A DNA stretch of 43,855 bases, taken from positions 1-43,855 of the IMG/VR virus record IMGVR_UViG_3300013093_000087. One strand, 5' to 3'. This document shows, piece after piece, positions 1,223 to 32,666 of this stretch (the stretch's first letter is position 1; every line of letters begins with the position of its first letter). The position numbers and the translations under genes were made by a program. The stretch comes from a virus. The notes under the pieces were generated by a model that was given only the letters and a program-made list of their open reading frames with translations, had not been told where the DNA came from and did not search any database.

Positions 1223-2464
1223 ATGGCATTTGTTGACGTTGGTGTAGCTATTATTGGATCCGAAGCCGCTGCAGCTATTGGTACTGCTGGCACTGCTGCT
1301 ATCGGTTCTGGTTTAGTTGGTGCTGGTACAGGTGCATTAATGGCGGGTATCCAAGGAAAAAATGTGCTTAATGGCGCATTAATGGGTGGTGCGCTTGGTG
1401 CTGTAGGTGGTGGTATTGGTGGATCAATGATGGGTGCCGCAGGAAATGTTACTGGACAAATTGGTACTGATGTTGCTTCAATGCAAGCGGCGGGAGCAAG
1501 TTATAGCGAAGTAAACCAAGCTTTAATGGATACCTATGGTATGACTTCAGCCCAAGCTGATGCAGCTATAACCCAAACAGCCCAAACAGGATCAACTGCT
1601 GGTGGTATTAATGCCGCTTCTGCCAATGCTTTAGATAAAGGTGTAGGTATTGCAAGTAATATTGGTCCAAGTACGGCCCCCGTAGGTAGTAGCAATGCTG
1701 CTGTTCAAGGCGCTAAAACCGCTATGACTAACCCAAACCTTTTAAAATACGGTGTACCTGCAGCTATGGTTGCCTATGGTTCAGGTTTATTTGGTAATAA
1801 AACTAGTGGTCCCGGCATTACTTCACAAAACACTATTGGTCAATCTAAGCCTGTACCGGGTATTATGAGTGCCCAGCTAAGCCCAAATTATCAAGGTTAC
1901 TTCCAAGCAGCTGAGGGTGGCATTGCTAAGTTAGCTGTAGGTGGTGGGGCTGAAGCCGAAATGACTCCTGACGTTAACCAAACATCGGTTAATCCTGCTG
2001 ATCTGAATCAAAGTAAAAGTGCTAGTTTATCCCCACAAACACAGTCTTTATTAAACCAATATGGTATTAACCAAAGCCAAGCAACGGGTGTTCTATCAGC
2101 ATTACAAAGCCAAGGTATTGGTAATCAACCAACTCATGCAGCTTCAGGCGGTATTATGGGTTTAGCCTCTGGTGGTGGAACTGGCTATCACTTAGGTGGT
2201 TATTCAGATGGTGGTCGTTTACTTAAAGGTCCTGGCGATGGTATGTCCGACGAAATTCCTGCAACAATTGGTCATAAACAACCAGCCCGTTTGGCTGATG
2301 GTGAGTTTGTTGTGCCTGCTGACGTTGTCTCGCATCTTGGTAACGGTTCTACTGATGCTGGTGCAAAGCACCTCTATAAGATGATGGATAACATACGACA
2401 TGCTCGCACAGGTAATAAGAAACAAGGCAAACAAATTAAGGCAGACAAATACTTACCAAAATGA
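1223..2464 (+). CDS. Gly-rich putative internal virion / DNA-ejection protein
   Basis: I place the start at ATG 1223, with GGAAGGAAA at 1209-1217 as its binding site; an earlier in-frame ATG at 1190 would overlap the previous gene by 32 nt. The product is 413 residues. Residues 1-90 are a Gly/Ala-rich hydrophobic stretch that could insert in membranes. Two GGI-x(2-3)-LA-x-GGG segments occur, EGGIAKLAVGGG and GGIMGLASGGG. The C-terminus holds ARLADGEFVVPADVVSHLGN followed by a Lys/Arg-rich tail. This 'DGEFVVPADVV' block recurs in putative internal virion proteins of uncultured podovirus-like phages. The stop overlaps the next start (ATGA). Confidence 0.65.
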   Translation: MAFVDVGVAIIGSEAAAAIGTAGTAAIGSGLVGAGTGALMAGIQGKNVLNGALMGGALGAVGGGIGGSMMGAAGNVTGQIGTDVASMQAAGASYSEVNQALMDTYGMTSAQADAAITQTAQTGSTAGGINAASANALDKGVGIASNIGPSTAPVGSSNAAVQGAKTAMTNPNLLKYGVPAAMVAYGSGLFGNKTSGPGITSQNTIGQSKPVPGIMSAQLSPNYQGYFQAAEGGIAKLAVGGGAEAEMTPDVNQTSVNPADLNQSKSASLSPQTQSLLNQYGINQSQATGVLSALQSQGIGNQPTHAASGGIMGLASGGGTGYHLGGYSDGGRLLKGPGDGMSDEIPATIGHKQPARLADGEFVVPADVVSHLGNGSTDAGAKHLYKMMDNIRHARTGNKKQGKQIKADKYLPK

Positions 2465-2862: not shown

Positions 2863-5495
2863 ATTTGATTAAATTGTTAAAGTGGTTTTTTATAGACCAA
2901 TTTATGTTGGGTTTTGGTGGCGGCGGATCTAGCGGTGGTGGTGGAACCACACAATCAGTATCAAATCAATATTCAAGTCTATCACCTTGGGCAGCGCCCT
3001 ATGTGACGTCTATGCTTGGTGCTGCTCAAAACCAAGTGTTTCAAACTGACCCAACCTCGGGTCAAATTACAGGCATGAACCCATACAATGCTTTTGGTAC
3101 ATCCAATGGTCAAGGTGGTCAATATGGTATGACTGCTAATGATATGACTGCCGCTAATTCTGCAGTGGCTCCATTTAGTCAACTTCAAAACCAATCTTTT
3201 GGTGCTGCAAGTAATCTGCAAACTCCTGGACAGTATGGTATGGCTACTGGCGCCGCTGGTATGGGTACTATGGGTGCTTTAGGTGCAGGTCAAAATCTGC
3301 AAAACACTCTGACTAGTGGTAATGCTATGAGTCAGTATATGAACCCATATATTCAAAATGTGCTTAACCCAGCTCTACAGCTATCTAACCAACAGTATGG
3401 TATCGCAGGACAACAAGCCCAAAGCGCTGCTACAGGTGCAGGTGCTTTCGGCGGATCACGTAATGCTTTAGCACAAGGTTTAAATCAACAAAATCAAATG
3501 CTGGCTAATAACCAGTTAATTGGTAACGCCTATAACACTGCATATGGTAATGCACAAACTCAAGCTAATAACGTAGCTAATATTGGGTTACAAGGTAATC
3601 AAGCTGCTATTACTGGTGGTAATACTTTAGCTAATATTGGTGCTTCACAAAATGCTACTAACTTGGCTAATATTGGTGTACAAAATCAATACGGTCAACA
3701 ACAGACTGCGGGTCAGCAAGCAATTATTAATCAGGCTATGCAGAACTACCAGACCGGTCAACAATATCCAATACAACAACTTACTAATCTAAAAAACTTA
3801 GCTTCTGGTATTCCTGTTACAGATACAACTCAAGTTCAACAAGTTGCTCCCCCTTCTACTGCTAATTTAATTGGTGGTGCTGGAATGACTGGGCTTGGTA
3901 TTGCTGCTGCAAGTGGTAACGCACCTACAACTACTATTAATATGAATACGCCACAAGTTGCTGCTGCTAAAGCTGGCGGTATTATGAAAATTAAACGTAT
4001 GGCTAATGGTGGTATTGGTTCTATTGTTACTAAAGCTATAGATGATCCAAAGTCGGTACCAGATCAAAGCCTTAAAGATGGGGTAATTCCAAAAGGATTA
4101 CCTGCTGATTTAGTTAGCGCATTAAAAACAAGCGAATCTTTACAGTCTAAAGCTATTTCACCAGCACCTACATCTACAGTTGTTCAAGATAATGATGCTA
4201 AGTTGCAACAGCAAGTAGCCCAAACTCAAGCAGTAGATTTACAAAAGCTACAAGCCGCATTACCTACTATTTTGGCTGACTTAAAAGTTCAAAGAGATAT
4301 TGCTGAAGAAAAAGGCAACAAAAAAGAAGTTAAACAAATAGATATGATGATGTCGGAAATACTTGCTAAAGCTCAAGAAGGTCAAGCTCAGCAAATGCAA
4401 CCGCAAAGTATTCAACAACTAGCTCAACCACAACAAGCCCCACAAGGTATTCAACAATTAGCACAACCCCAACAAGCCCCTCAACAAATGGCTCAAGCTC
4501 CACAACAAGTCCCACAAGGTATTGCTGGTGGTGGAGTTATTGCTTTTAGAAAAGGTGGTGAAGTTAAACGTTTTCTTGTTGGTGGTACAAGTACTGACGA
4601 TTCCAGCGCAGACCTTTCTCCTATTTTTAGTAAAATTGGTAGTGCTTTTAGTAATGTAGCTAAAGGGACTGTTAATGCTATGGATCCTGACGCACCTGCT
4701 CCAACACCTGTAGAAACTAAACCTCCAGTAGAAACTAAACCCCCAGTAGAAAAACCTAACAATAAAATTATTATTGGTGACCGTGCTCCTTCTGTGCCTA
4801 GAGAACCAAGTGCTCCAGTTGTTAATATGGATACATTTGATGTTACTAAGTCTACGAATAATATTACCAAAATGGTAGATAACTTTTCTAATATGTTAAT
4901 GAGTCAGTACAATCGTGACGATTCAAGCAAAGCTATTAGTAATGCACTTATAGCTGGTGGTGCTGCTTGGGGTAGCCATAAAGGTGTTGGTACTGGAATG
5001 GGTGATGCTATTGGTGCATTTGGTCCTGAATATCTACGTAGTACACAAGCTGAAAATGACCGTAAAGATAAGTTAATGGGTCAATATATGGCATTAGGTA
5101 TGAGTGGCGCTGGATTGCAAATGCAAGCTCAAAAATTGGGTATTGATGCTGCAGAATTTAAAGCTAAAGCACCGTTGTACGCTGCACAAGCACACTACTA
5201 TCTTAATAAAAAGAATACAGGTAGCCAAGGGCTTGGTTCTGTTTCCGGTACTGTAGTTCAAAAAGAACTTGATGCTGCAGAAGGATATAAAGCTAACCCG
5301 TCAACTGCACCATTTTTTAAGAATTTACCAAAAGAGACTCAAATTGCTTTAACTAAAACTGATCCTAGCTCTGGTTCTTACCAGCGTAATATGGATGTAT
5401 TTAATCAGGCACTAGATGACTATACTGGTAAAAGATTAAGAACTATGCAGTTTTTTGGGGCAAAAACTCCTGTAGTAGCTTCTAGCGCAGAATAA
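2859..5495 (+). CDS. Large Gln/Gly-rich putative internal virion protein (878 aa)
   Basis: The start is the ATGA overlap at 2859 with AGAGG upstream. Residues 1-20 are hydrophobic (LLKWFFIDQFML) and are followed by a Gly-rich linker. Residues 30-320 are rich in Asn, Gln and Ala, with recurrent NxxNxANIG patterns suggesting a long repetitive helix. GGI/GGV-type motifs appear in the middle, for example AGGIMKIKRMANGGIG and AGGGVIAFRKGG. A Gln-rich tandem repeat lies near residues 517-545 and a Pro-rich VETKPP repeat near 617-630. The C-terminal 220 residues look helical. Together with its neighbours it resembles the ejection proteins (T7 gp14-gp16 equivalents), assigned by position and composition only. 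Confidence 0.65.
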   Translation: MNLIKLLKWFFIDQFMLGFGGGGSSGGGGTTQSVSNQYSSLSPWAAPYVTSMLGAAQNQVFQTDPTSGQITGMNPYNAFGTSNGQGGQYGMTANDMTAANSAVAPFSQLQNQSFGAASNLQTPGQYGMATGAAGMGTMGALGAGQNLQNTLTSGNAMSQYMNPYIQNVLNPALQLSNQQYGIAGQQAQSAATGAGAFGGSRNALAQGLNQQNQMLANNQLIGNAYNTAYGNAQTQANNVANIGLQGNQAAITGGNTLANIGASQNATNLANIGVQNQYGQQQTAGQQAIINQAMQNYQTGQQYPIQQLTNLKNLASGIPVTDTTQVQQVAPPSTANLIGGAGMTGLGIAAASGNAPTTTINMNTPQVAAAKAGGIMKIKRMANGGIGSIVTKAIDDPKSVPDQSLKDGVIPKGLPADLVSALKTSESLQSKAISPAPTSTVVQDNDAKLQQQVAQTQAVDLQKLQAALPTILADLKVQRDIAEEKGNKKEVKQIDMMMSEILAKAQEGQAQQMQPQSIQQLAQPQQAPQGIQQLAQPQQAPQQMAQAPQQVPQGIAGGGVIAFRKGGEVKRFLVGGTSTDDSSADLSPIFSKIGSAFSNVAKGTVNAMDPDAPAPTPVETKPPVETKPPVEKPNNKIIIGDRAPSVPREPSAPVVNMDTFDVTKSTNNITKMVDNFSNMLMSQYNRDDSSKAISNALIAGGAAWGSHKGVGTGMGDAIGAFGPEYLRSTQAENDRKDKLMGQYMALGMSGAGLQMQAQKLGIDAAEFKAKAPLYAAQAHYYLNKKNTGSQGLGSVSGTVVQKELDAAEGYKANPSTAPFFKNLPKETQIALTKTDPSSGSYQRNMDVFNQALDDYTGKRLRTMQFFGAKTPVVASSAE
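4410..4487 (+). repeat. Two tandem 39-bp copies in coding sequence
   Basis: Two adjacent 39-bp units, 4410-4448 and 4449-4487, each encode IQQLAQPQQAPQ plus one residue (G or Q). They lie inside the Gln-rich part of the 878-residue protein. Several silent differences separate the copies, so the duplication is not recent. Confidence 0.8.
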
Positions 5496-18892: not shown

Positions 18893-19561
18893 TTAGTTCC
18901 TTCCATTATGAGCGCACTCTAATACTGGGCAATACTTCTTACATAACCCACTTGGTCTAGGATTCCATACATTATTGGCATAGGAAAACTTCATCCGATT
19001 ATGTTCTGCAATCCATTTAACCCACATCTTATCCTGTTTTTCAGCATCATACGAATCTTTTATGAAGTTCTTAGAAATAACAAAAAGAAGCCCACCTTTG
19101 ACCTTTTTGACTTCGGGAAAAAACTTAAAAATAGCTAGTGCCATTAGTTCCAGTTGGTCAGTATCGGCATACTTAGCCGATTTGCCAGTCTTATAGTCTA
19201 CGCAACGTGCTTCATCCCCATTGATAATCAACAAGTCAGCAATACCTCGCCACCAAACCTTTGGGTCTTTGAATCCGCAGGGTTCTAGGTTTTCTGTCAA
19301 CCCCATTTCAAACTCACAATGTTTTATACCCTCTAGTTGTTTTAAACTATCTAATGTAGATTTAACAAAACTAAACTGTGGAGGTATTGGTACGTCATCC
19401 CGTACGTAATGTTCAGCTGCCGAATGAAACTCTTTACCATATAAGATAGCATCTGTTGGTGGCTCGGTTACATCTTTAGCTACACGTAAGTGGTAAAACT
19501 TTTTAGGGCATTGGTCGTATAGCTTAATGCTAGAGTATGACCATGCAGGTATCTTAGTCAA
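18893..19561 (-). CDS. Cas4/RecB-like PD-(D/E)XK nuclease
   Basis: The 222-residue protein opens with WSYSSIKLYDQCPKKFYHLR (8-27), the usual start of PD-(D/E)XK exonucleases of the Cas4/RecB group. GIADLLII and then CVDYKTGK (about 115-136) give the catalytic D...DxK. C-terminal cysteines (CKKYCPVLEC) together with C18 could hold an iron-sulfur cluster. The start is TTG at 19561, inside TTGACTAA, using GAGGTGG just upstream; that binding site is the 3' end of the preceding mini-gene. No CRISPR array is seen, so a role in phage recombination or DNA end processing is more likely. Confidence 0.8.
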   Translation of the reverse strand: MTKIPAWSYSSIKLYDQCPKKFYHLRVAKDVTEPPTDAILYGKEFHSAAEHYVRDDVPIPPQFSFVKSTLDSLKQLEGIKHCEFEMGLTENLEPCGFKDPKVWWRGIADLLIINGDEARCVDYKTGKSAKYADTDQLELMALAIFKFFPEVKKVKGGLLFVISKNFIKDSYDAEKQDKMWVKWIAEHNRMKFSYANNVWNPRPSGLCKKYCPVLECAHNGRN

Positions 19562-19718
19562 AGTCCACCTCTATTTCATAATCTTTTTGTTGGTTTAAAA
19601 TTTGTTGCGCTAAAGACTCAAGATAGGGTGGCACAATAAGTTTAGTAGGTTTAGTAGGTTTAGAAACCAAATCTATAAATATTATCTCAAGTGAAGATTC
19701 ATTTAACTCGCTATTCAT
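19554..19718 (-). CDS. Mini-gene ending in EVDFD (54 aa)
   Basis: A 54-residue protein, MNSELNESSLEII at the start and DYEIEVDFD at the end, with a TKPTKP repeat at about 21-26. It begins in the junction GAGGTGGACTTTGATGA, whose GAGGTGG is a ribosome binding site and also encodes the C-terminus of the gene before. Its own end supplies the binding site of the Cas4-like nuclease in the same way. The function is unknown. It is the last of four consecutive mini-genes sharing this junction. Confidence 0.6.
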   Translation of the reverse strand: MNSELNESSLEIIFIDLVSKPTKPTKLIVPPYLESLAQQILNQQKDYEIEVDFD

Positions 19719-19881
19719 CAAAGTCCACCTCTACTATGTAACTAGGTTTATTCGCATCTCTAAATGCGCCGCTAAGTATTCGCCCTATTATTGCTTCTTT
19801 AGTCTGCTCCATTGCTTCCGCTAAATGTTGAGTATATCGCTTGCGCATTTCTTCATGCACCTTCGGGTCTATCGTGTCCAT
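19711..19881 (-). CDS. Mini-gene ending in YIVEVDFDE (56 aa)
   Basis: A 56-residue, mostly helical protein (MDTIDPKVHEEMRKRYTQHL at the N-terminus). Its last nine residues YIVEVDFDE are identical to a segment of the gene at 19998-20171. The start lies inside the 3' end of the preceding gene, in GGTAGATTTTGATG; the stop overlaps the next start by 8 nt. No known domain is visible. Confidence 0.6.
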   Translation of the reverse strand: MDTIDPKVHEEMRKRYTQHLAEAMEQTKEAIIGRILSGAFRDANKPSYIVEVDFDE

Positions 19882-20038
19882 CAAAATCTACCTTTGTTAT
19901 GTATGGTTCATCTACAAAAATTTCACCAGCAAACTTTTTAGTTTTTGGCATGTTAGCAAGTTGAGTTGCATACTCTTCTGCTGTTATTCCAAGTTTCTTA
20001 GCTAAGTTCATTTGTACTGCACTTATTCTTATCTTCAT
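19853..20038 (-). CDS. Mini-gene with AKKLG motif and KVDFD end (61 aa)
   Basis: The start is ATG 20038 (MKIRISAVQMNLAKKLGITA). The segment AKKLGITAEEYATQL (14-28) resembles AKKLGLTNEQYVREL at the C-terminus of the scaffold protein at 41844-42794. Near its end it carries YITKVDFDGHDR, a variant of the shared VDFD junction peptide. It starts inside the preceding mini-gene, using GGAGGT as binding site. The function is unknown; the shared segment may bind a common partner or be a small helical module. Confidence 0.6.
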   Translation of the reverse strand: MKIRISAVQMNLAKKLGITAEEYATQLANMPKTKKFAGEIFVDEPYITKVDFDGHDRPEGA

Positions 20039-20171
20039 CAAAATCTACCTCCACTATATAGTCTTCTTTATTAAATATTTCAGCACCAAATTTACTGTAC
20101 TCAAGGTCAAATAGCGCATTAAGTCCGGGTAATAGTTCTTTCAATAAGTCTTTTCTAGATATCATTATCAT
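19998..20171 (-). CDS. Mini-gene with ELLPGLNALF motif (57 aa)
   Basis: A 57-residue protein. SRKDLLKELLPGLNALFDLE (5-24) resembles a short helical motif found in small phage proteins of unknown role. YIVEVDFDE follows at 38-46, then a tail of 11 residues that overlaps the next gene by 41 nt. The start ATG 20171 overlaps the stop of the preceding gene. It is the first of the four VDFD-junction genes. Confidence 0.6.
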   Translation of the reverse strand: MIMISRKDLLKELLPGLNALFDLEYSKFGAEIFNKEDYIVEVDFDEDKNKCSTNELS

Positions 20172-20470
20172 TTAACTCCATGATACTTTTCAACCCACCT
20201 AGCAAAGTCCTTGCCTTTGCCAATACTAATCCAAGCTTTCTTTAATGTTTCATCAGGTATTGGTTTAGATTGAACAGCACAACGTTTCTCTACCTTTTTT
20301 GTAGCTTCATAAGTAGCGGCACTTCTACATACGTACCATGCACTTTTCCATGCTTGCCACATAGGATCAGAGTTAATGTCTTCATTTTCGTTGTCAATCC
20401 AATGGTTATTCATAGCCCATCGTAAAAAAGACGCTAAACACTTAGCATCGGGTGAACCTTTAGCGTTCAT
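20168..20470 (-). CDS. Hypothetical Trp-rich protein (100 aa)
   Basis: A basic 100-residue protein with ten Trp or Cys residues (FLRWAMNNHWIDNE, MWQAWKSAWYVCRSAA). It starts with ATGAAC directly after the repeated junction GGCACAAGAGAA. I do not recognise a domain. It links the EPVAW cassette upstream with the VDFD cassette downstream. Confidence 0.65.
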   Translation of the reverse strand: MNAKGSPDAKCLASFLRWAMNNHWIDNENEDINSDPMWQAWKSAWYVCRSAATYEATKKVEKRCAVQSKPIPDETLKKAWISIGKGKDFARWVEKYHGVK

Positions 20471-20700
20471 TTCTCTTGTGCCTTTCTTAGTATTGCTCTA
20501 GCAAATTCAAGTTCAGGCTGTCCACTCCAATCCATCTCCGCCCATAAATCTTGTATTTCCTCATCTGTTAGTGTCTTTGCTGGATGGGTGTAGAGTGGAA
20601 TGTTGTAATCAGAACAATCACCACCTTTACCTGATTTCTTAAATTTATCTGTAATAACATCATCATCTTTACACATCCACGCTACTGGTTCATTGTTCAT
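20467..20700 (-). CDS. EPVAW/YTHPAK family small protein, paralog 3
   Basis: A 77-residue member of a phage family of unknown function. MNNEPVAWM opens the protein, IPLYTHPAKTLTDEEI (about 34-49) is the central motif, and FARAILRKAQEK closes it. The variable part between the ends contains CKDDD and GGDC. Two further copies lie at 20873-21130 and 21127-21366. The 3' end encodes KAQEK and carries the start of the next gene in an ATGA overlap. Confidence 0.75.
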   Translation of the reverse strand: MNNEPVAWMCKDDDVITDKFKKSGKGGDCSDYNIPLYTHPAKTLTDEEIQDLWAEMDWSGQPELEFARAILRKAQEK

Positions 20701-20876
20701 TTCTCTTGTGCCTTTAAAAATTTAAAAGTTAAGCCAAAACACTTGTAAACATTGATGTAACCATTTCTTTCGCTAAACAATGGCTGATGGTGCTTTGTTT
20801 GTTTTACCCATAAGCCATAGCCAAAAAATCTAAACCAAAATCCATGACCAATATTGCAGTAATAAAAAGGTTTCAT
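20697..20876 (-). CDS. Small aromatic protein with PLFSERNG motif (59 aa)
   Basis: MKPFYYCNIGHGFWFRFFGY leads into LWVK, then PLFSERNGY (32-40), a motif I know from small phage proteins of unknown role. It sits between two EPVAW paralogs and is not related to them, yet it ends in the same KAQEK encoded by the same junction GGCACAAGAGAAATGA. The strong aromatic content suggests membrane association or a compact beta fold. Confidence 0.65.
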   Translation of the reverse strand: MKPFYYCNIGHGFWFRFFGYGLWVKQTKHHQPLFSERNGYINVYKCFGLTFKFLKAQEK

Positions 20877-21130
20877 TTCTCTTGTGCCTTTCTTAGTATT
20901 TCGTATGCAAACTCAGTAAATTTAATTTCATCTACCTGACCATTTTTATCTAATTCGTAATACTTTCCAGCCGCCCATACTGCATGAATTTCTCCTATGC
21001 TAAGTTTCTTTGCTGGATGGGTGTAGAGTGGAATACAAGGTTGTTTAATATCAAAAGATATGTTTAATGCTGCACCCAAGCTAGTAAAAAGCACACCATC
21101 TACCATCCATGCTACTGGTTCATTGTTCAT
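20873..21130 (-). CDS. EPVAW/YTHPAK family small protein, paralog 2
   Basis: An 85-residue paralog with MNNEPVAWM, IPLYTHPAKKLSIGEI and EILRKAQEK. The middle (VDGVLFTSLGAALNISFDI) differs from the other copies, so only the ends and the YTHPAK motif are conserved. ATGA overlaps are present on both sides. Confidence 0.75.
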   Translation of the reverse strand: MNNEPVAWMVDGVLFTSLGAALNISFDIKQPCIPLYTHPAKKLSIGEIHAVWAAGKYYELDKNGQVDEIKFTEFAYEILRKAQEK

Positions 21131-21366
21131 TTATCCTGTGCCTTTCTTAGTATTGCTCTAGCAAAAGCCTTTTGTTTCATCCAAGGTGTGTTGCCATGCG
21201 AATGACTCCAGCAATAATCTATTTCCTCATCTGTTAGTGTCTTTGCTGGATTGGTATAGAGTGGAATCCATGTGCCTTCAAGATGGTCAATCACTTGTAA
21301 ATTAATTAACTTTGGCTTTCGGTCTTCCAAGCCCAACAACATCCATGCTACTGGTTCATTGTTCAT
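21127..21366 (-). CDS. EPVAW/YTHPAK family small protein, paralog 1
   Basis: A 79-residue paralog with MNNEPVAWM, IPLYTNPAKTLTDEEI and FARAILRKAQDK. It is first in the cassette after the DNA polymerase gene. Its start overlaps the 13-codon remnant ORF at 21356-21397. The function of the family is unknown. Confidence 0.75.
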   Translation of the reverse strand: MNNEPVAWMLLGLEDRKPKLINLQVIDHLEGTWIPLYTNPAKTLTDEEIDYCWSHSHGNTPWMKQKAFARAILRKAQDK

Positions 21367-21397
21367 TTGTAATCCCAGCTAGTTCATTTGCGTTCAT
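21356..21397 (-). pseudogene. 13-codon remnant ORF of a MNANEL-type gene
   Basis: ATG in a TAATG overlap with the polymerase stop reads MNANELAGITNEQ and then stops. The first six residues match the usual start of a small phage family (MNANELAD...). The rest seems lost, and the frame runs into the ATGAACAATGAACC start of the first EPVAW paralog. It may be a leftover from recombination or a tiny coupling ORF. Confidence 0.35.
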
Positions 21398-23229
21398 TAG
21401 CAGTCTCCATATGATTTACCAAACCCACTCTCACAGTTAACAGGTAATCCATCAGCCCACTCCGGTGTCCAACGCATACAATCTTCAATATATGCTTGGG
21501 CTTCTTCAACTTCTGTTTCCGGCACAATACAAGCAACGGCATCATGCACAGTCAGTACTACCCTGTAACGCTTAGCTATACGAATCATCTGCTCACCAAT
21601 AATGCAACGTGCCAATGCTTGGCAAACATTCTCAATAACTTTACCACCATAAATCTTATTCCAACCATAACGGGTCTTATACTGATATTGAGTTTTACCA
21701 TCTTCTTTGACTGAAACTAGCTGGTCATAACGCATTAACAAGCCGCTTGGTAAACGTATTCCACGCTCCTCTGGGGCCAGATTCAATACACCATTTTTAC
21801 CCAAAGATGTTGTCATACCCTTAGCCATTGCTTCAAGCGCTATCTGGGCTTCTCGCCATAGCGCAGTAATGTACGGATATGTTTCTCTGTAAATCGTGAT
21901 GATATGACGGGCTTCATCTTCCGTAACTTCCACATCGAAAGTCTTAAGCTGTGCTTTGAATTTCTGAGCCCCCATGCCGTAGCCACATCCGAGAATTGTA
22001 GTCTTGCCGACGAATCTTTCCTCTTTTGTAATTTCATCTGCACTCTTACCATATATAGCCGAAGCCATGATCTTGTATACATCCTCGTGCCTTTCAAACG
22101 CTTCAACCAAATCATTCTGCCCCGCCAACCATGCCAACACACGTGCCTCAATTTGACTTGAATCGGCATCAATAATCATGTAGCCCTCGGGTGCAATGAT
22201 GGCTTTTTTTAGCTTACCTGCATTATCTCCACGACTAGGCAAGTTCTGCAAGTTCAAGCTATCGCTACCACCCCACCGCCCTGTATGAGCCGCATAATAT
22301 TTAATAGGAACTGGCATCAAACCACGTTTAGAGATTCCAATAAATCGTTCAGTCCTAGTTTCTTCTAAAGTAGATTTAGCCCCAAGGCGAGCCGCTACTA
22401 AAGCCTGTACTCTTACATCAGGATGTTCAGACAAAATCTTAAACTCCTCGTCGTTCTTAGCTAACGCAAGGGCTTCTTTACCTGTCTTCAAACTAGTCTT
22501 CATCGGTGGCACAACACCAAGTAACTTTAATAGTTCAGCAAACTTCTGATTGCTCATTAGTTCTTCACGGCTAGTAATACCAGCTTCTATTAACAACTTA
22601 GCTTTTGCCGCCCTTACTGTGTCATAGTGCTGTTCAAGTAAAGTTAAATCTAAATCTAATTTCGGTTCAATAAACATACGTAGAGTAAGATCAATCAACT
22701 TCATCTCACCTTTAGGAAATCCATTTTTAACCATAGCATTAAATAGCTTATAGGTTAACTCCACATCATTAACACAATAATCACCATATCTATTAAGTTC
22801 TTCTTCGGTAAAGTCCACACGATTCTTCCCGGATGCGGCGATGACTTCATCACCCTTAACTCCTAGTTTGTATCTTTCAGTTAGTGCCGCAAGCGATGCA
22901 CTTGATTCAACACCATGAATCCCTCGACCCATGCACATCGTATCGGCATATGCTTTAGCGGTAATACCAAACTTCTCAGACATAATGAAGCCATCAAACA
23001 TACAGTTATGAGCAAGCATCATTGACTCTTTCCAAGGAAAAGTCTTAAGGTAATCCGCTATTTGTTTGTGCGTACCACTCGCCCACTCAGTCTCACCACC
23101 ATTAACCTTAATGGCTACACCGATTACTTCAAAACGGTCACTACGTACATACTCTTCAGTTGTCATCTTAGACAGACTAAAGCTAGACTTCTCATAGAAA
23201 GTCTCAAAGTCAATCGTTATTAGATTCAC
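21397..23229 (-). CDS. DNA polymerase, family A, with 3'-5' exonuclease
   Basis: The 610-residue replicative polymerase shows exonuclease motifs Exo I DFET (7-10), Exo II HNCMFD (74-79) and Exo III YCVND (151-155). The polymerase part has motif A DADSSQIEARVLAWLAG (354-370), motif B RFVGKTTILGCGYG (405-418) and motif C VHD (561-563). No 5' nuclease domain is present, as usual for phage enzymes. The start is GTG 23229 with GAGGAG about 8 nt upstream, inside the end of the preceding small gene. It probably works with the primase-helicase and SSB encoded downstream. Confidence 0.95.
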   Translation of the reverse strand: MNLITIDFETFYEKSSFSLSKMTTEEYVRSDRFEVIGVAIKVNGGETEWASGTHKQIADYLKTFPWKESMMLAHNCMFDGFIMSEKFGITAKAYADTMCMGRGIHGVESSASLAALTERYKLGVKGDEVIAASGKNRVDFTEEELNRYGDYCVNDVELTYKLFNAMVKNGFPKGEMKLIDLTLRMFIEPKLDLDLTLLEQHYDTVRAAKAKLLIEAGITSREELMSNQKFAELLKLLGVVPPMKTSLKTGKEALALAKNDEEFKILSEHPDVRVQALVAARLGAKSTLEETRTERFIGISKRGLMPVPIKYYAAHTGRWGGSDSLNLQNLPSRGDNAGKLKKAIIAPEGYMIIDADSSQIEARVLAWLAGQNDLVEAFERHEDVYKIMASAIYGKSADEITKEERFVGKTTILGCGYGMGAQKFKAQLKTFDVEVTEDEARHIITIYRETYPYITALWREAQIALEAMAKGMTTSLGKNGVLNLAPEERGIRLPSGLLMRYDQLVSVKEDGKTQYQYKTRYGWNKIYGGKVIENVCQALARCIIGEQMIRIAKRYRVVLTVHDAVACIVPETEVEEAQAYIEDCMRWTPEWADGLPVNCESGFGKSYGDC

Positions 23230-24545: not shown

Positions 24546-25310
24546 TTATATTCCTTTTAAAATGTTGGGGTTAATCTCCCCTATATTATCCAAGTTCCTG
24601 CCTGCATAGTCATTATTTAGTAGAACATGTTGCATTGTGGCAATCCTTGCACTCCTCTTGCAGTCTGACTTAACTACTATCCAAGGGTTATCCTCTGATG
24701 TGTATTTAAGTATGCTCCGTTCTGCATGGGTATATTCATCCCACTTATCCTGACTTACCCTATCAATCGGGGATAACTTACCTAATTTCAAAGGGTTGCT
24801 TTCCCTTTCTTTAAACCGCCGTTCCTGCTCTTTTTTACTAACGTCTAACCAAAACTTAATAAGGCATATGCCACTTTCTTGCCACATCTCTTCCATTGTG
24901 TAACATTGGCTATAGAAAATAGCAACCTCGTCGGTTGTGGCAAAACCCATGACTCTCTCAACAGTTGCTCGGTTATACCAAGACCTATCCCATAGGGTAA
25001 CTTCTCCTGTACGTGGTAGTTCCTTGATAAACCGTTGCCAATACCATTGCATACGTTCTTGCTCGGTAGGTTTGTCCAATGCTACGACTCGGGCGGACTT
25101 TGGATTCATATGTTCCATAAATCGTTTAATCGTACCGCCCTTGCCTGCACCATCTCGTCCCTCAAAAACCACCATATGCTTCTGACCAGTATCTTTGACG
25201 TGGTGTTGCCACTTCAATAGTTCTACTTGCAAAGCATACTTCTTAGTATCAAATTCCTTTTGGGACATAAGATTCCTAGGTGATTCCTCGGTTTGATCAA
25301 TCGTGCTCAC
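24546..25310 (-). CDS. ppk2: Polyphosphate kinase 2 family (PPK2) enzyme
   Basis: PPK2 enzymes transfer phosphate between polyphosphate and nucleotides. All family signatures are visible: Walker A FEGRDGAGKGGTIKR (49-63), Walker B LWDRSWYNRATVERVMGF (106-123), and the lid RFKERESNP (165-173) followed by GKLSPIDRVSQDKWDEY (177-193). The length of 254 fits a one-domain PPK2. The lid has LGKLSP where WKLSP is more usual. The start is GTG 25310 in an overlap with the upstream gene, with AGAGGG before it; ATG at residue 15 is an alternative. Direction and nucleotide preference cannot be read from sequence. It is an unusual phage gene. Confidence 0.9.
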   Translation of the reverse strand: MSTIDQTEESPRNLMSQKEFDTKKYALQVELLKWQHHVKDTGQKHMVVFEGRDGAGKGGTIKRFMEHMNPKSARVVALDKPTEQERMQWYWQRFIKELPRTGEVTLWDRSWYNRATVERVMGFATTDEVAIFYSQCYTMEEMWQESGICLIKFWLDVSKKEQERRFKERESNPLKLGKLSPIDRVSQDKWDEYTHAERSILKYTSEDNPWIVVKSDCKRSARIATMQHVLLNNDYAGRNLDNIGEINPNILKGI

Positions 25311-26604: not shown

Positions 26605-26899
26605 TTAATTCTCCTGTTGTTAATAAAGATGGAAGATACTTAACGTCATCTTCCCTTACTACTAAAGCCACACCACCGCAGTCAATAATCTTTTTAAGAT
26701 TAAGTTCTTGCAATGTAGTTAGCTTTCCTTTTCCAGCTTTAGTTTCAATGCCGAAAAATAGACCTTTATGGCAGACTAAAAAATCAGGTGCACCTTGCTT
26801 ACCGTAACCGCCTGTAACTGGCATCACGTAATAAGCACCAAGCCCATCAAGGACTTGGCGCACTTGTTTTTTAACTTTCCCCTCGGGGGTCAGTGCCAT
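26567..26899 (-). CDS. VRR-NUC domain nuclease
   Basis: I place the start at ATG 26899, with AAGGAGAG upstream; the open frame extends 5' but has no signal. The 110-residue protein shows the PD-(D/E)XK pattern of VRR-NUC proteins: GAPDFLVCHKGLFFGIETKA (38-57) gives D...ExK, after an N-terminal helix (VKKQVRQVLDGLGAYYVMPV). VRR-NUC nucleases act on branched DNA, and phage copies probably resolve replication or recombination structures. The 3' end overlaps the HTH gene by 38 nt. Confidence 0.85.
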   Translation of the reverse strand: MALTPEGKVKKQVRQVLDGLGAYYVMPVTGGYGKQGAPDFLVCHKGLFFGIETKAGKGKLTTLQELNLKKIIDCGGVALVVREDDVKYLPSLLTTGELNEQETNTSSKID

Positions 26900-29317: not shown

Positions 29318-30505
29318 TTAGTTCTCCTCAATATGTACAGTCACACCAACATCTGCGTTGGCACTCTTATTACCTTGAATACACCACAACACAGGCACAG
29401 TCCACCGACCCCATGACCCACCCAAATAGCCATCTGTTAACACAACAACACACTCGGGCTTGATGCCATGCTCGTTCATATACATCGGCACACACTCGAC
29501 GTTAGTACCACCGCCCCCTGCAGGCTTGGTAGACTTCACCAAATCATCAAGTTCATCTTGCATATAAACTTCTTCCTTACATACGTCCGTGTCCCAATAC
29601 AACATACGAACCTTGCTCGGCTTAACCTGATCACAGATACCTTTGACCTCTGTTAAGAACTTCATCAGTTCATGCTGACCAATCGAACCCGACGTATCTA
29701 TGGCTATGACAATCTCACCGATTGATTCACTAATGCTTGACGGCATTAACATATCCATACCCACATATCTACGGTTAGGTTTGCGCCATGTAGAGTAGTC
29801 TTTACCTGCACAAGTTGTTGTCACAAAGTCACGTAGTAACTCTTTCCAATCTTTCTTGGTTTGCAATAACTCACTAATATCACGTAACCCACCAGTACCC
29901 ATCTTGCCTGCCATGATTGCGCCTTGCCTTACAGCTTCATCAATATCTTTGGCTAACTCCTCAGCTTCTTCGGCAGATAACGCTTGAGCACCCTCCCAGT
30001 CATGGTCATCGAAACCAGTGCCCTCACCCAAACCTTGACCTTTACCTTTTCCATTACTAGGTGGTAGTAAGTCAAAGACTTGTTTAGAGTCCATGCCTGC
30101 ATACTTGAGATCCATCAGCCCACCATCGGGCATTCGTATCCACCCACTCCTACATGCATCGGTATCTGTTAACTTGTGATTGATTACATAGTCACATGCT
30201 TGGTTGGCCCGTTCATGATCTAAGTCATGCAGATACTTCCATGTAGTCAAGTGTCGATACATCTTGTGATAACACTCATGCAACATTAAGAATCTAAACT
30301 CAGCGTCATTCAAAGAGTCAACAAACTCCCGACCATACTTCTCGTCACGTCCGTTGGTACATGCAGTTGGTAGTCCGTCGACTACTTCTTTGTTGCCAAT
30401 CATGAGCACCCCTGCAAGGGCGACGAACTCTTCCCGACCTACGATGTCAGTCGTAGCCTTCATAAGTCGTTGCTCTGCAGTTAATGGTTTACCTATTGCT
30501 AACAT
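29318..30505 (-). CDS. vWA-domain protein with metallopeptidase-like N-terminus
   Basis: The C-terminal domain has the MIDAS motif DTSGSIG (270-276) followed by TDGY, typical of vWA domains that pair with MoxR AAA+ proteins (DUF2201 / vWA-like type). The N-terminal part has LHECYH (75-80), an HExxH zinc-peptidase-like signature. An acidic linker lies at about 165-195. It is directly downstream of the MoxR ATPase gene. Such pairs act as metal-dependent chaperone or remodelling machines; the phage target is unknown. Binding site AAGGAGAAA. Confidence 0.85.
   Translation of the reverse strand: MLAIGKPLTAEQRLMKATTDIVGREEFVALAGVLMIGNKEVVDGLPTACTNGRDEKYGREFVDSLNDAEFRFLMLHECYHKMYRHLTTWKYLHDLDHERANQACDYVINHKLTDTDACRSGWIRMPDGGLMDLKYAGMDSKQVFDLLPPSNGKGKGQGLGEGTGFDDHDWEGAQALSAEEAEELAKDIDEAVRQGAIMAGKMGTGGLRDISELLQTKKDWKELLRDFVTTTCAGKDYSTWRKPNRRYVGMDMLMPSSISESIGEIVIAIDTSGSIGQHELMKFLTEVKGICDQVKPSKVRMLYWDTDVCKEEVYMQDELDDLVKSTKPAGGGGTNVECVPMYMNEHGIKPECVVVLTDGYLGGSWGRWTVPVLWCIQGNKSANADVGVTVHIEEN
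30369..30386. repeat. Stem-loop repeat copy, CGTC loop
   Basis: GGTAGTC-CGTC-GACTACT has the constant stem and a different loop. It lies in the vWA gene where the protein reads VVDGLP, a region that looks conserved in the protein family, so coding constraint may explain part of it. Confidence 0.6.
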
Positions 30506-30516
30506 AATGTTTCTCC

Positions 30517-31632
30517 TTATTTTTTATCTGCGCTAAACATGAAGTTGTTGTCCATGCACCATTGAGTAAACTTCTTATTACCCATGACCATAGACTGACG
30601 TTGATACTTCGGATTGCGTACCTGCATAGCGAATAGACCTTGTGCTTCTTTATCTAAACGATTGAGGTATTCCATCCAAGGATCAATGAACTCTTTGTTC
30701 ATAGTCGCAAGCGCACGATACACAACCATGACAATGCCTGATGCGGATTGCGGGATCTTGGCAGTTGACGGACTCGTCTTAATATCTTCCTGTCTTGGCA
30801 GTTGATCGACCAGATCAATATAGGCTTCAAGGTCAGCACCACCACGAGCACCGATAGTACCCATGAGATTAGACTTCAATGCGTTCTTGCTCATCTTGTC
30901 CTTAGCCCATAACCAATGACTTGCTAACTCAAGACTGCGTGGTGTCACGAATGACGGACGTTGTGACTTCGGATGATAGATATAAGGGTTACCACCTATA
31001 TCATCGTCAGGCTTCTCGATCTCTTCATAAGATTGAAAGAGTTGTTCACCATGTTCTTTGACCCACATAATCATGGCAGGATTTATTCCTGCGTTGATAG
31101 CAAAGCCCTCGATCCACTCGGTAGCCGTTGGCTTCTTCATACGTATGACTGTGATGCGATTGCGGTGGTGTGGCATAAGTAAGTCACCGACCCCCTCTGT
31201 TCCTAGGTTAGTGGTGGCAAACACGATAGACCCTTCGGGTAACTTCTTAGTACCAAAGGTACGTTCTAACATTACACGCATCATGCCATTCTTGACTGAT
31301 GGATTCGCCTTACCAAACTCATCAATCATTAAGATGATTGGCTTGTCGTGGTGTAGACCCATCTCTTCGTTAGGTACAAAGCGTACAAAGTCCTCGGTAC
31401 TGTCGTCACGCAAGATCTTGGGCAACATCAAATCGCCTAAGTCCTTGGTAGTGCAGTCAAAATAGCAAGGCACGTGAGTTGGTAACTTCTGTGCCAACAC
31501 CTTAAGGATTGAGGATTTACCTGTACCCATGTGACCTTGAACCAAGGTAGTCAGCCGACTACCAGTAGCGAGGATTGAATCGACGCACTCGTCGAGGGAT
31601 TGTGCGAATAACTGCTCTGCTGATTGTTTCAT
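30517..31632 (-). CDS. MoxR-type AAA+ ATPase
   Basis: The 371-residue protein has Walker A GHMGTGKS (33-40), Walker B ILMIDE (100-105) and sensor 1 ATTN (139-142). Arg residues at HHRNR (155-159) could serve as arginine finger. The layout matches MoxR/AAA_5 ATPases that work with vWA partners, and the vWA gene follows after 11 nt. ACAGGAGAAT is the binding site. GSRLTT at 24-29, just before the P-loop strand, is encoded by a stem-loop repeat (31546-31563). Confidence 0.88.
   Translation of the reverse strand: MKQSAEQLFAQSLDECVDSILATGSRLTTLVQGHMGTGKSSILKVLAQKLPTHVPCYFDCTTKDLGDLMLPKILRDDSTEDFVRFVPNEEMGLHHDKPIILMIDEFGKANPSVKNGMMRVMLERTFGTKKLPEGSIVFATTNLGTEGVGDLLMPHHRNRITVIRMKKPTATEWIEGFAINAGINPAMIMWVKEHGEQLFQSYEEIEKPDDDIGGNPYIYHPKSQRPSFVTPRSLELASHWLWAKDKMSKNALKSNLMGTIGARGGADLEAYIDLVDQLPRQEDIKTSPSTAKIPQSASGIVMVVYRALATMNKEFIDPWMEYLNRLDKEAQGLFAMQVRNPKYQRQSMVMGNKKFTQWCMDNNFMFSADKK
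31546..31563. repeat. Stem-loop repeat copy, inverted orientation
   Basis: GGTAGTC-AGCC-GACTACC has a perfect 7-bp stem; the loop is the reverse complement of GGCT. It lies near the 5' end of the MoxR gene, encoding GSRLTT. Confidence 0.9.
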
Positions 31633-31700
31633 GTAATTCTCCTGTTTAAATTGATCGTACTTATTGCCGATTGTTGATTAACGTACCACTCCATAACTTC

Positions 31701-32609: not shown

Positions 32610-32666
32610 TTTAATTCTCCTGTTGAACTACGTTGATGTTTACTACGAATTACCACCTTATACTAC

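Follow-up and report, generated by a model that had tools for sequence, protein, structure and literature searches.

Why should small phage genes of unrelated sequence end in the same few residues? The question is raised by a 43,855-base virus record, referred to here as the window, in which an array of four small genes lies between a family-A DNA polymerase gene on one side and a gene for a 100-residue protein on the other (Table 1). Three of the array genes are EPVAW paralogs that are homologous over their whole length, and one encodes a 59-residue protein whose likeness to the paralogs is limited, by inspection, to the last five residues. The open reading frames are as the preliminary description gave them, with all four products ending in KAQ(E/D)K, and the stop codon of each gene overlaps the start of the next as ATGA. 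No family was matched in Pfam and PHROG scans of the four array proteins, tblastn of the 59-residue and EPVAW3 proteins against phage records returned no matches, and the AlphaFold model of EPVAW3 (mean pLDDT 73, pTM 0.44) was too weak for a structure search. Beyond the 100-residue gene lie a second array, called VDFD after its own repeat, a PD-(D/E)XK exonuclease gene and an SNF2-type helicase gene. Elsewhere the window encodes a polyphosphate kinase 2, and similar DNA (65-73%) occurs in six loci with the VRGEK pattern introduced below (L212, L213, L217, L220, L225 and L226). It also carries an AAA ATPase gene adjoining a DUF2201 metallopeptidase/VWA-like gene, a pair that resembles MoxR-VWA chaperone pairs and is unusual cargo for a small phage.

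Table 1. Positions of the array genes, junction copies and other features in the window or, where a locus is named, in that locus
Feature	Coordinates	Strand	Remarks
Four-gene array	20467-21366	-	all four genes on this strand
EPVAW1	21127..21366	-	79 aa, C-terminus RKAQDK
EPVAW2	20873..21130	-	85 aa, C-terminus RKAQEK
Unrelated cassette PLFSERNG	20697..20876	-	59 aa, C-terminus FLKAQEK
EPVAW3	20467..20700	-	77 aa, C-terminus RKAQEK
Junction copy 1, variant	21127..21149	-	TAAGAAAGGCACAGGATAAATGA; EPVAW1 end, EPVAW2 start region
Junction copy 2	20873..20895	-	TAAGAAAGGCACAAGAGAAATGA; EPVAW2 end, 59-aa gene start region
Junction copy 3	20697..20714	-	AAGGCACAAGAGAAATGA; 59-aa gene end, EPVAW3 start region; without the upstream TAAGA part
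Junction copy 4	20467..20489	-	TAAGAAAGGCACAAGAGAAATGA; EPVAW3 end, 100-aa gene start region
Exact 16-mer GGCACAAGAGAAATGA (3 copies)	20467-20482, 20697-20712, 20873-20888		
Two-mismatch copy GGCACAGGATAAATGA of the 16-mer	21127-21142		
100-aa gene	20168..20470	-	downstream edge of array; kept in L408, L409 and L414
Relic ORF MNANELAGITNEQ	21356..21397	-	first 22 nt (21376-21397) equal the start of the MNANELAD cassette
Family-A DNA polymerase gene	21397-23229		flanks the array
VDFD junction copy	19558..19571	-	
VDFD junction copy	19718..19731	-	GAGGTGGACTTTGA; encodes EVDFD, with a strong Shine-Dalgarno and the next gene's start region
VDFD junction copy	20038..20051	-	GAGGTAGATTTTGA
VDFD-array gene MNSELNESS...	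19554..19721	-	missing from L414, a single-cassette difference
ACAGGAGAATTA copies	26606-26617, 31634-31645, 32612-32623, 34036-34047	-	each just before an ATG; the four genes are unrelated
Polyphosphate kinase 2 gene	24546-25310	-	PF03976, E 4e-82
AAA ATPase gene	30517-31632	-	
DUF2201 metallopeptidase/VWA-like gene	29318-30505	-	adjoins the AAA ATPase gene
Within-gene domain recombination	L408 about 2987-3278; L414 3812-4283		L408 positions on the locus reverse complement
Cassettes stopping at the TAA that opens the junction	L124 610-740; L451 about 1560-1690		

The shared ends are a matter of DNA as well as of protein. Four or more matches to the 16-mer GGCACAAGAGAAATGA at up to three mismatches, as present in the window, were found in none of 100 dinucleotide-preserving shuffles of it (mean 0.40). 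The preliminary description had put the shared junction at 16 bp; its placement at the four gene ends is borne out, and the shared block has turned out to be longer. Specifically, in a conservation profile built from one representative per upstream context (n = 117), a block of about 23 bp, TAAGAAAGGCACAAGAGAAATGA, is conserved from -19 to +3 around the ATG, and conservation drops steeply on either side into unconserved flanks. Within the block lie the putative ribosome-binding region of the following gene and its start codon, which overlaps the preceding gene's TGA stop; in 88 of the 117 contexts the upstream KAQEK frame runs open for 30 codons or more. A promoter or terminator reading of the junction was dropped, such sites being no more numerous than in shuffles, as was a hairpin reading, since the KAQEK and KASEK junctions fold at 0 kcal/mol.

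The junction is also widespread. An exact scan of IMG/VR with the 16-mer found at least 120 stretches, and among the matches listed 41 of 120 loci hold two to six copies. About 180 of the 201 matches listed mark the KAQEK end of one open reading frame and, at the overlapping ATG, the beginning of a second, and the genes on either side vary from match to match. Proteins with junction tails fall into at least about 164 families by loose clustering and at least 245 by stricter clustering, one of the families being large and held together by an LTDEEI...FARAIL domain. The junction has two further versions: KASEK (AAAGAAAGCGAGTGAGAAATGA), which is related to KAQEK and recurs in IMG/VR among the matches listed, and VRGEK (GTAAGGGGAGAGAAATGA), which is rare. 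Through a 50-bp match at the DNA level, a deposited circular phage genome, MW202753.1, was identified; it has two exact KAQEK junctions at different genes. A host search over genome contigs returned seven scattered MAG contigs of inconsistent taxa. The window genome has in addition a separate start-associated repeat, ACAGGAGAATTA, in four copies.

Comparison of near-identical phages shows genes coming and going at these sites. For example, locus L414, whose flanks are 99.5% identical to the window, has one fused, intact MNAYELAD+EPVAW gene in place of the four-gene array. In L408 the start of EPVAW1 is joined to a different C-terminal half that ends in KASEK, and L409 has another EPVAW gene with the same C-terminal half as L408, ending in KAQEK. 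Likewise, L174 and L451 (98-99.6% identical) carry the FKEFPV and MNGND cassettes in opposite order, and L451 has one cassette more, all of them bounded by junctions. The preliminary description had proposed that gain and loss of single genes be mapped in related phages; so mapped, they comprise loss, replacement, fusion and reordering, with breaks at junctions. The window bears a trace of its own: the relic ORF next to the polymerase gene is a remnant left where an MNANELAD cassette, common in the collected loci (52 copies), was lost or replaced. EPVAW, MNANELAD and LTDEEI...FARAIL also behave as domains that recombine inside genes, besides at junctions.

The pooled comparisons point the same way. 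Where pairs of sites shared 90% of the upstream 60 nt, the downstream genes were discordant in 225 pairs and concordant in 9 at junctions; pairing the other gene boundaries of these loci in the same manner gave 49 and 186. These counts are not independent of one another. Taken by clusters, 45 of 49 were discordant at junctions and 106 of 246 elsewhere (Fisher, 5e-11), and in the opposite direction 27 of 31 and 152 of 278 (4e-4); the sequence switches 0-3 nt past the ATG in most pairs. The junction was the query by which the loci were collected, a procedure that enriches for varied contexts at it, so that more weight attaches to the near-identical phages. Of the 204 breakpoint sides between related loci, 23 fall within 30 nt of a junction, versus 1.6% for random points, and 83 of 102 length-changing differences touch no junction. 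Junctions are therefore hot, but are not the sole points of exchange.

The neighbouring VDFD array offers the cleanest single event. The sequence TAGAGGTGGACTTTGA occurs twice in the window, 160 bp apart, and once in L414, which lacks one VDFD gene and retains exactly one copy of the 16-bp repeat; recombination between the VDFD copies at 19558 and 19718 gives this one-gene-shorter form. A four-fold degenerate 17-mer for VDFD found 77 stretches, of which 72 had a single match, and VDFD was dropped as a candidate widespread junction because other contigs mostly showed single matches. The idea that the KAQEK and VDFD arrays follow the same logic is thus upheld by the clean gene loss in L414 and needs amending in scope, VDFD being a local repeat and KAQEK a widespread one.

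It is probable, in our judgement, that the junction is a portable stop/ribosome-binding/start element that doubles as a short homology patch for the exchange of cassettes. In the mRNA, AGAAAGG followed by CACAAGAGAA and ATG would start the next gene, and the TGA inside ATGA would end the preceding one. Leaving no intergenic space, the element would also encode the final residues of the protein upstream (RKAQEK), giving unrelated proteins a common end. The same sequence between most array genes would offer a short homology patch. Copies within a genome, or in co-infecting phages, could then undergo phage homologous recombination or strand annealing, by which whole cassettes would be deleted, inserted, swapped or reordered with reading frames and start signals left intact. 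On entering an array of a different junction version, a gene would adopt the version found there.

The machinery for such exchange may be at hand, as array-bearing loci also carry Erf-like and Sak annealing proteins, YqaJ/RecE exonucleases and RusA, and we infer that single-strand annealing proteins are used; none was recognised among the window proteins scanned. The minimal pairing length of Red-beta is 23-27 bp, and Rad52-like phage recombinases use short stretches (PMC3945230). At 23 bp the KAQEK junction, and at 16 bp the VDFD one, lie at or below the Red-beta minimum (PMC3945230), a length that is just reached by the KAQEK junction, or by the 38 bp available where FARAIL precedes it. A dedicated recombinase of the integron type, with the junction as its recognition site, would also account for precise single-cassette boundaries in same-direction arrays of small genes, and different recombinase specificities could be reflected in the several junction types. 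This seems unlikely, however: the junction lacks an inverted repeat and shows no notable single-strand structure, no integrase was found among the 25 commonest families of 93 neighbour proteins or among the window proteins scanned, and genes also undergo exchange internally, at homologous stretches other than the junction, such as YTHPAKTLTDEEI/FARAIL in L408 and L414, as homology-driven exchange predicts.

The resemblance of the gene ends might instead stem from plain tandem duplication of EPVAW, with the unrelated gene having converged on the same end through the same need for ribosome binding. The paralogs are indeed homologous throughout, and the junction does hold a Shine-Dalgarno-like stretch. 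The last seven bases of betaproteobacterial 16S rRNA are CCUUUCU, and the AGAAAGG of the junction is complementary to that 3' end, the host being assumed to be of this class. With the same assumed 16S tail, the computed duplex amounts to -7.9 kcal/mol for KAQEK, -9.7 for KASEK, -8.6 for VRGEK and about -10.5 for VDFD, so that all four versions are predicted to pair more strongly than 95% of random 20-mers from the window (median -1.8, best-5% cut-off -6.2 kcal/mol). A role in translation initiation is suggested by these values, and the ATGA overlap would suit coupled translation. Ribosome binding alone does not explain the identity of the junction, however, because positions such as CACAAGAGAA are fixed yet do not pair with 16S rRNA. 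Indeed, positions that do not pair are mostly 96-100% conserved across the 117 contexts, as conserved as those that do, which suggests that the identity is best explained by descent and exchange rather than convergence. Duplication with convergence is further contradicted by the abrupt change of the flanks at the ATG, by the cassette loss in L414 and by the reordering between L174 and L451 at the repeat, and we regard it as quite improbable. The earlier reading as a recombination junction stands with an addition: the junction is also the translation-start region of the next gene, and so more than a recombination scar.

The tail goes with the array and not with the protein. The 59-residue protein was found in nine loci. 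In KAQEK arrays its homologs end in KAQEK or KVQEK beside several different neighbours, and in L130 and L131, with a core 83% identical over residues 1-54, it ends in AKVRGEK, as do the adjoining genes. This answers in the negative the question posed in the preliminary description, namely whether homologs in unrelated contexts also keep KAQEK, and shows that the end belongs to the junction of the array and not to the protein. Together with the breaks at junctions, it supports the earlier proposal of an insertion or recombination event there as the source of the unrelated gene's end. Similarly, the HTHCWH protein ends in ...HPNAIRKAQEK in KAQEK arrays and in ...HPNAIEAKVRGEK, with the AKVRGEK end, in L442, and is followed by about ten different genes across 17 loci. 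The FKEFPV protein ends in RKAQEK or KKASEK, and in L444 has a native-looking ...SPAPSSEPTE end with no junction after it. The same junction type is shared by 0.81 of pairs within a locus (shuffled maximum 0.565) and by 0.84 of pairs within a gene family (shuffled maximum 0.687), the latter partly because close relatives were sampled.

These tails also bear on a further explanation, that the peptide itself is selected, for instance as a shared C-terminal signal, and that the DNA identity merely follows. Tail changes are synonymous more often than expected (0.39 versus 0.22 for KAQEK, 0.34 versus 0.21 for KASEK), and the KAQEK frame is open in most contexts, as given above. Most changes nevertheless alter the peptide, the same proteins end in AKVRGEK in other arrays or natively, as in L444, and some cassettes in L124 and L451 stop at the TAA that opens the junction, the remainder of which then serves as an untranslated leader, making the tail peptide optional. 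It is under weak constraint at most, and a selected tail is a very improbable cause of the identity. Finally, nearly all compared sequences, and every close comparison, are metagenomic, but misjoining of contigs at short repeats, which could mimic shuffled cassettes, is hardly credible, given that the repeats (16-45 bp) are below usual assembler k-mers, that the window and another contig record (L129/L133, a pair that may come from the same sampling site) agree at 99.99% over 7 kb around the array and that circular MW202753.1 has its two exact junction copies at different genes.

The nearest described element is the start-associated sequence (SAS) of cluster K mycobacteriophages, as portrayed in the relevant sections of Pope et al. 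2011 (PMC3203893) and a survey (PMC12699233). Like the junction, the SAS is there a short, asymmetric repeat in one orientation, just upstream of the starts of many gene families in the non-structural half of the genome, with a Shine-Dalgarno core and conserved positions that do not pair with 16S rRNA; the junction core can likewise pair with the 16S 3' end, a betaproteobacterial tail being assumed for the host. Its consensus, GGGATAGGAGCCC, differs from that of the junction, and no extended inverted repeats were seen at the junction, unlike the SAS. Coding sequence is almost free of the SAS (six of 125 lie in ORFs according to that part of PMC12699233), whereas the junction is read as the C-terminus of the preceding gene, and those sections of the two papers describe no gain, loss or reordering of cassettes at the SAS.

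Integron arrays resemble the present ones in their small, unrelated, same-direction genes, in the repeated site that separates these and in the exchange of cassettes one at a time. Unlike integrons, these arrays have no attC-like fold, no single insertion site and no integrase in the proteins surveyed above, and they exchange at other homologous stretches as well. Promoter/stem-loop (PeSL) cassettes of T4-type phages were reportedly treated by Arbiol et al. in 2010 and Comeau et al. in 2014. As mobile regulatory cassettes, cited in the pertinent part of PMC4503421, they too are repeated regulatory sequences between small accessory genes with proposed homology-based modular shuffling, a trait found also at the junction; the PeSL combines an early promoter with a terminator stem-loop, whereas the junction has neither and signals translation start and stop. 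The engine of exchange at short or diverged homology is likely the homology-driven mosaicism by Rad52-like phage recombinases of De Paepe et al. 2014 (PMC3945230). In that case homology arises incidentally, whereas here a recurrent functional junction supplies it at nearly every array gene boundary. In the open-access papers searched, no junction that confers the same C-terminus on unrelated phage proteins was found described.

Taken as a whole, these freshwater phages gain, lose and reorder genes exactly at a shared start/stop sequence. How single accessory genes can be swapped without breaking an operon is an old question, and here one sequence ends a gene, starts the next and supplies the homology, so that any cassette can be inserted in frame at the junction. 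It is conceivable, although we put this forward with considerable doubt, that a freshwater phage group keeps its accessory genes as exchangeable cassettes with lineage dialects (KAQEK, KASEK, VRGEK and VDFD), and that incoming genes are converted to the resident dialect by a specific process of replacement of their native C-terminus, possibly through a dedicated annealing protein that favours the junction. Annotators should note that a C-terminus common to such proteins is a product of the junction rather than a sign of common ancestry. With the junction as a sequence handle, tiny and fast-moving phage genes, likely candidates for host takeover or counter-defence, can be found by the hundred, and gene-by-gene exchange in these phages becomes testable.
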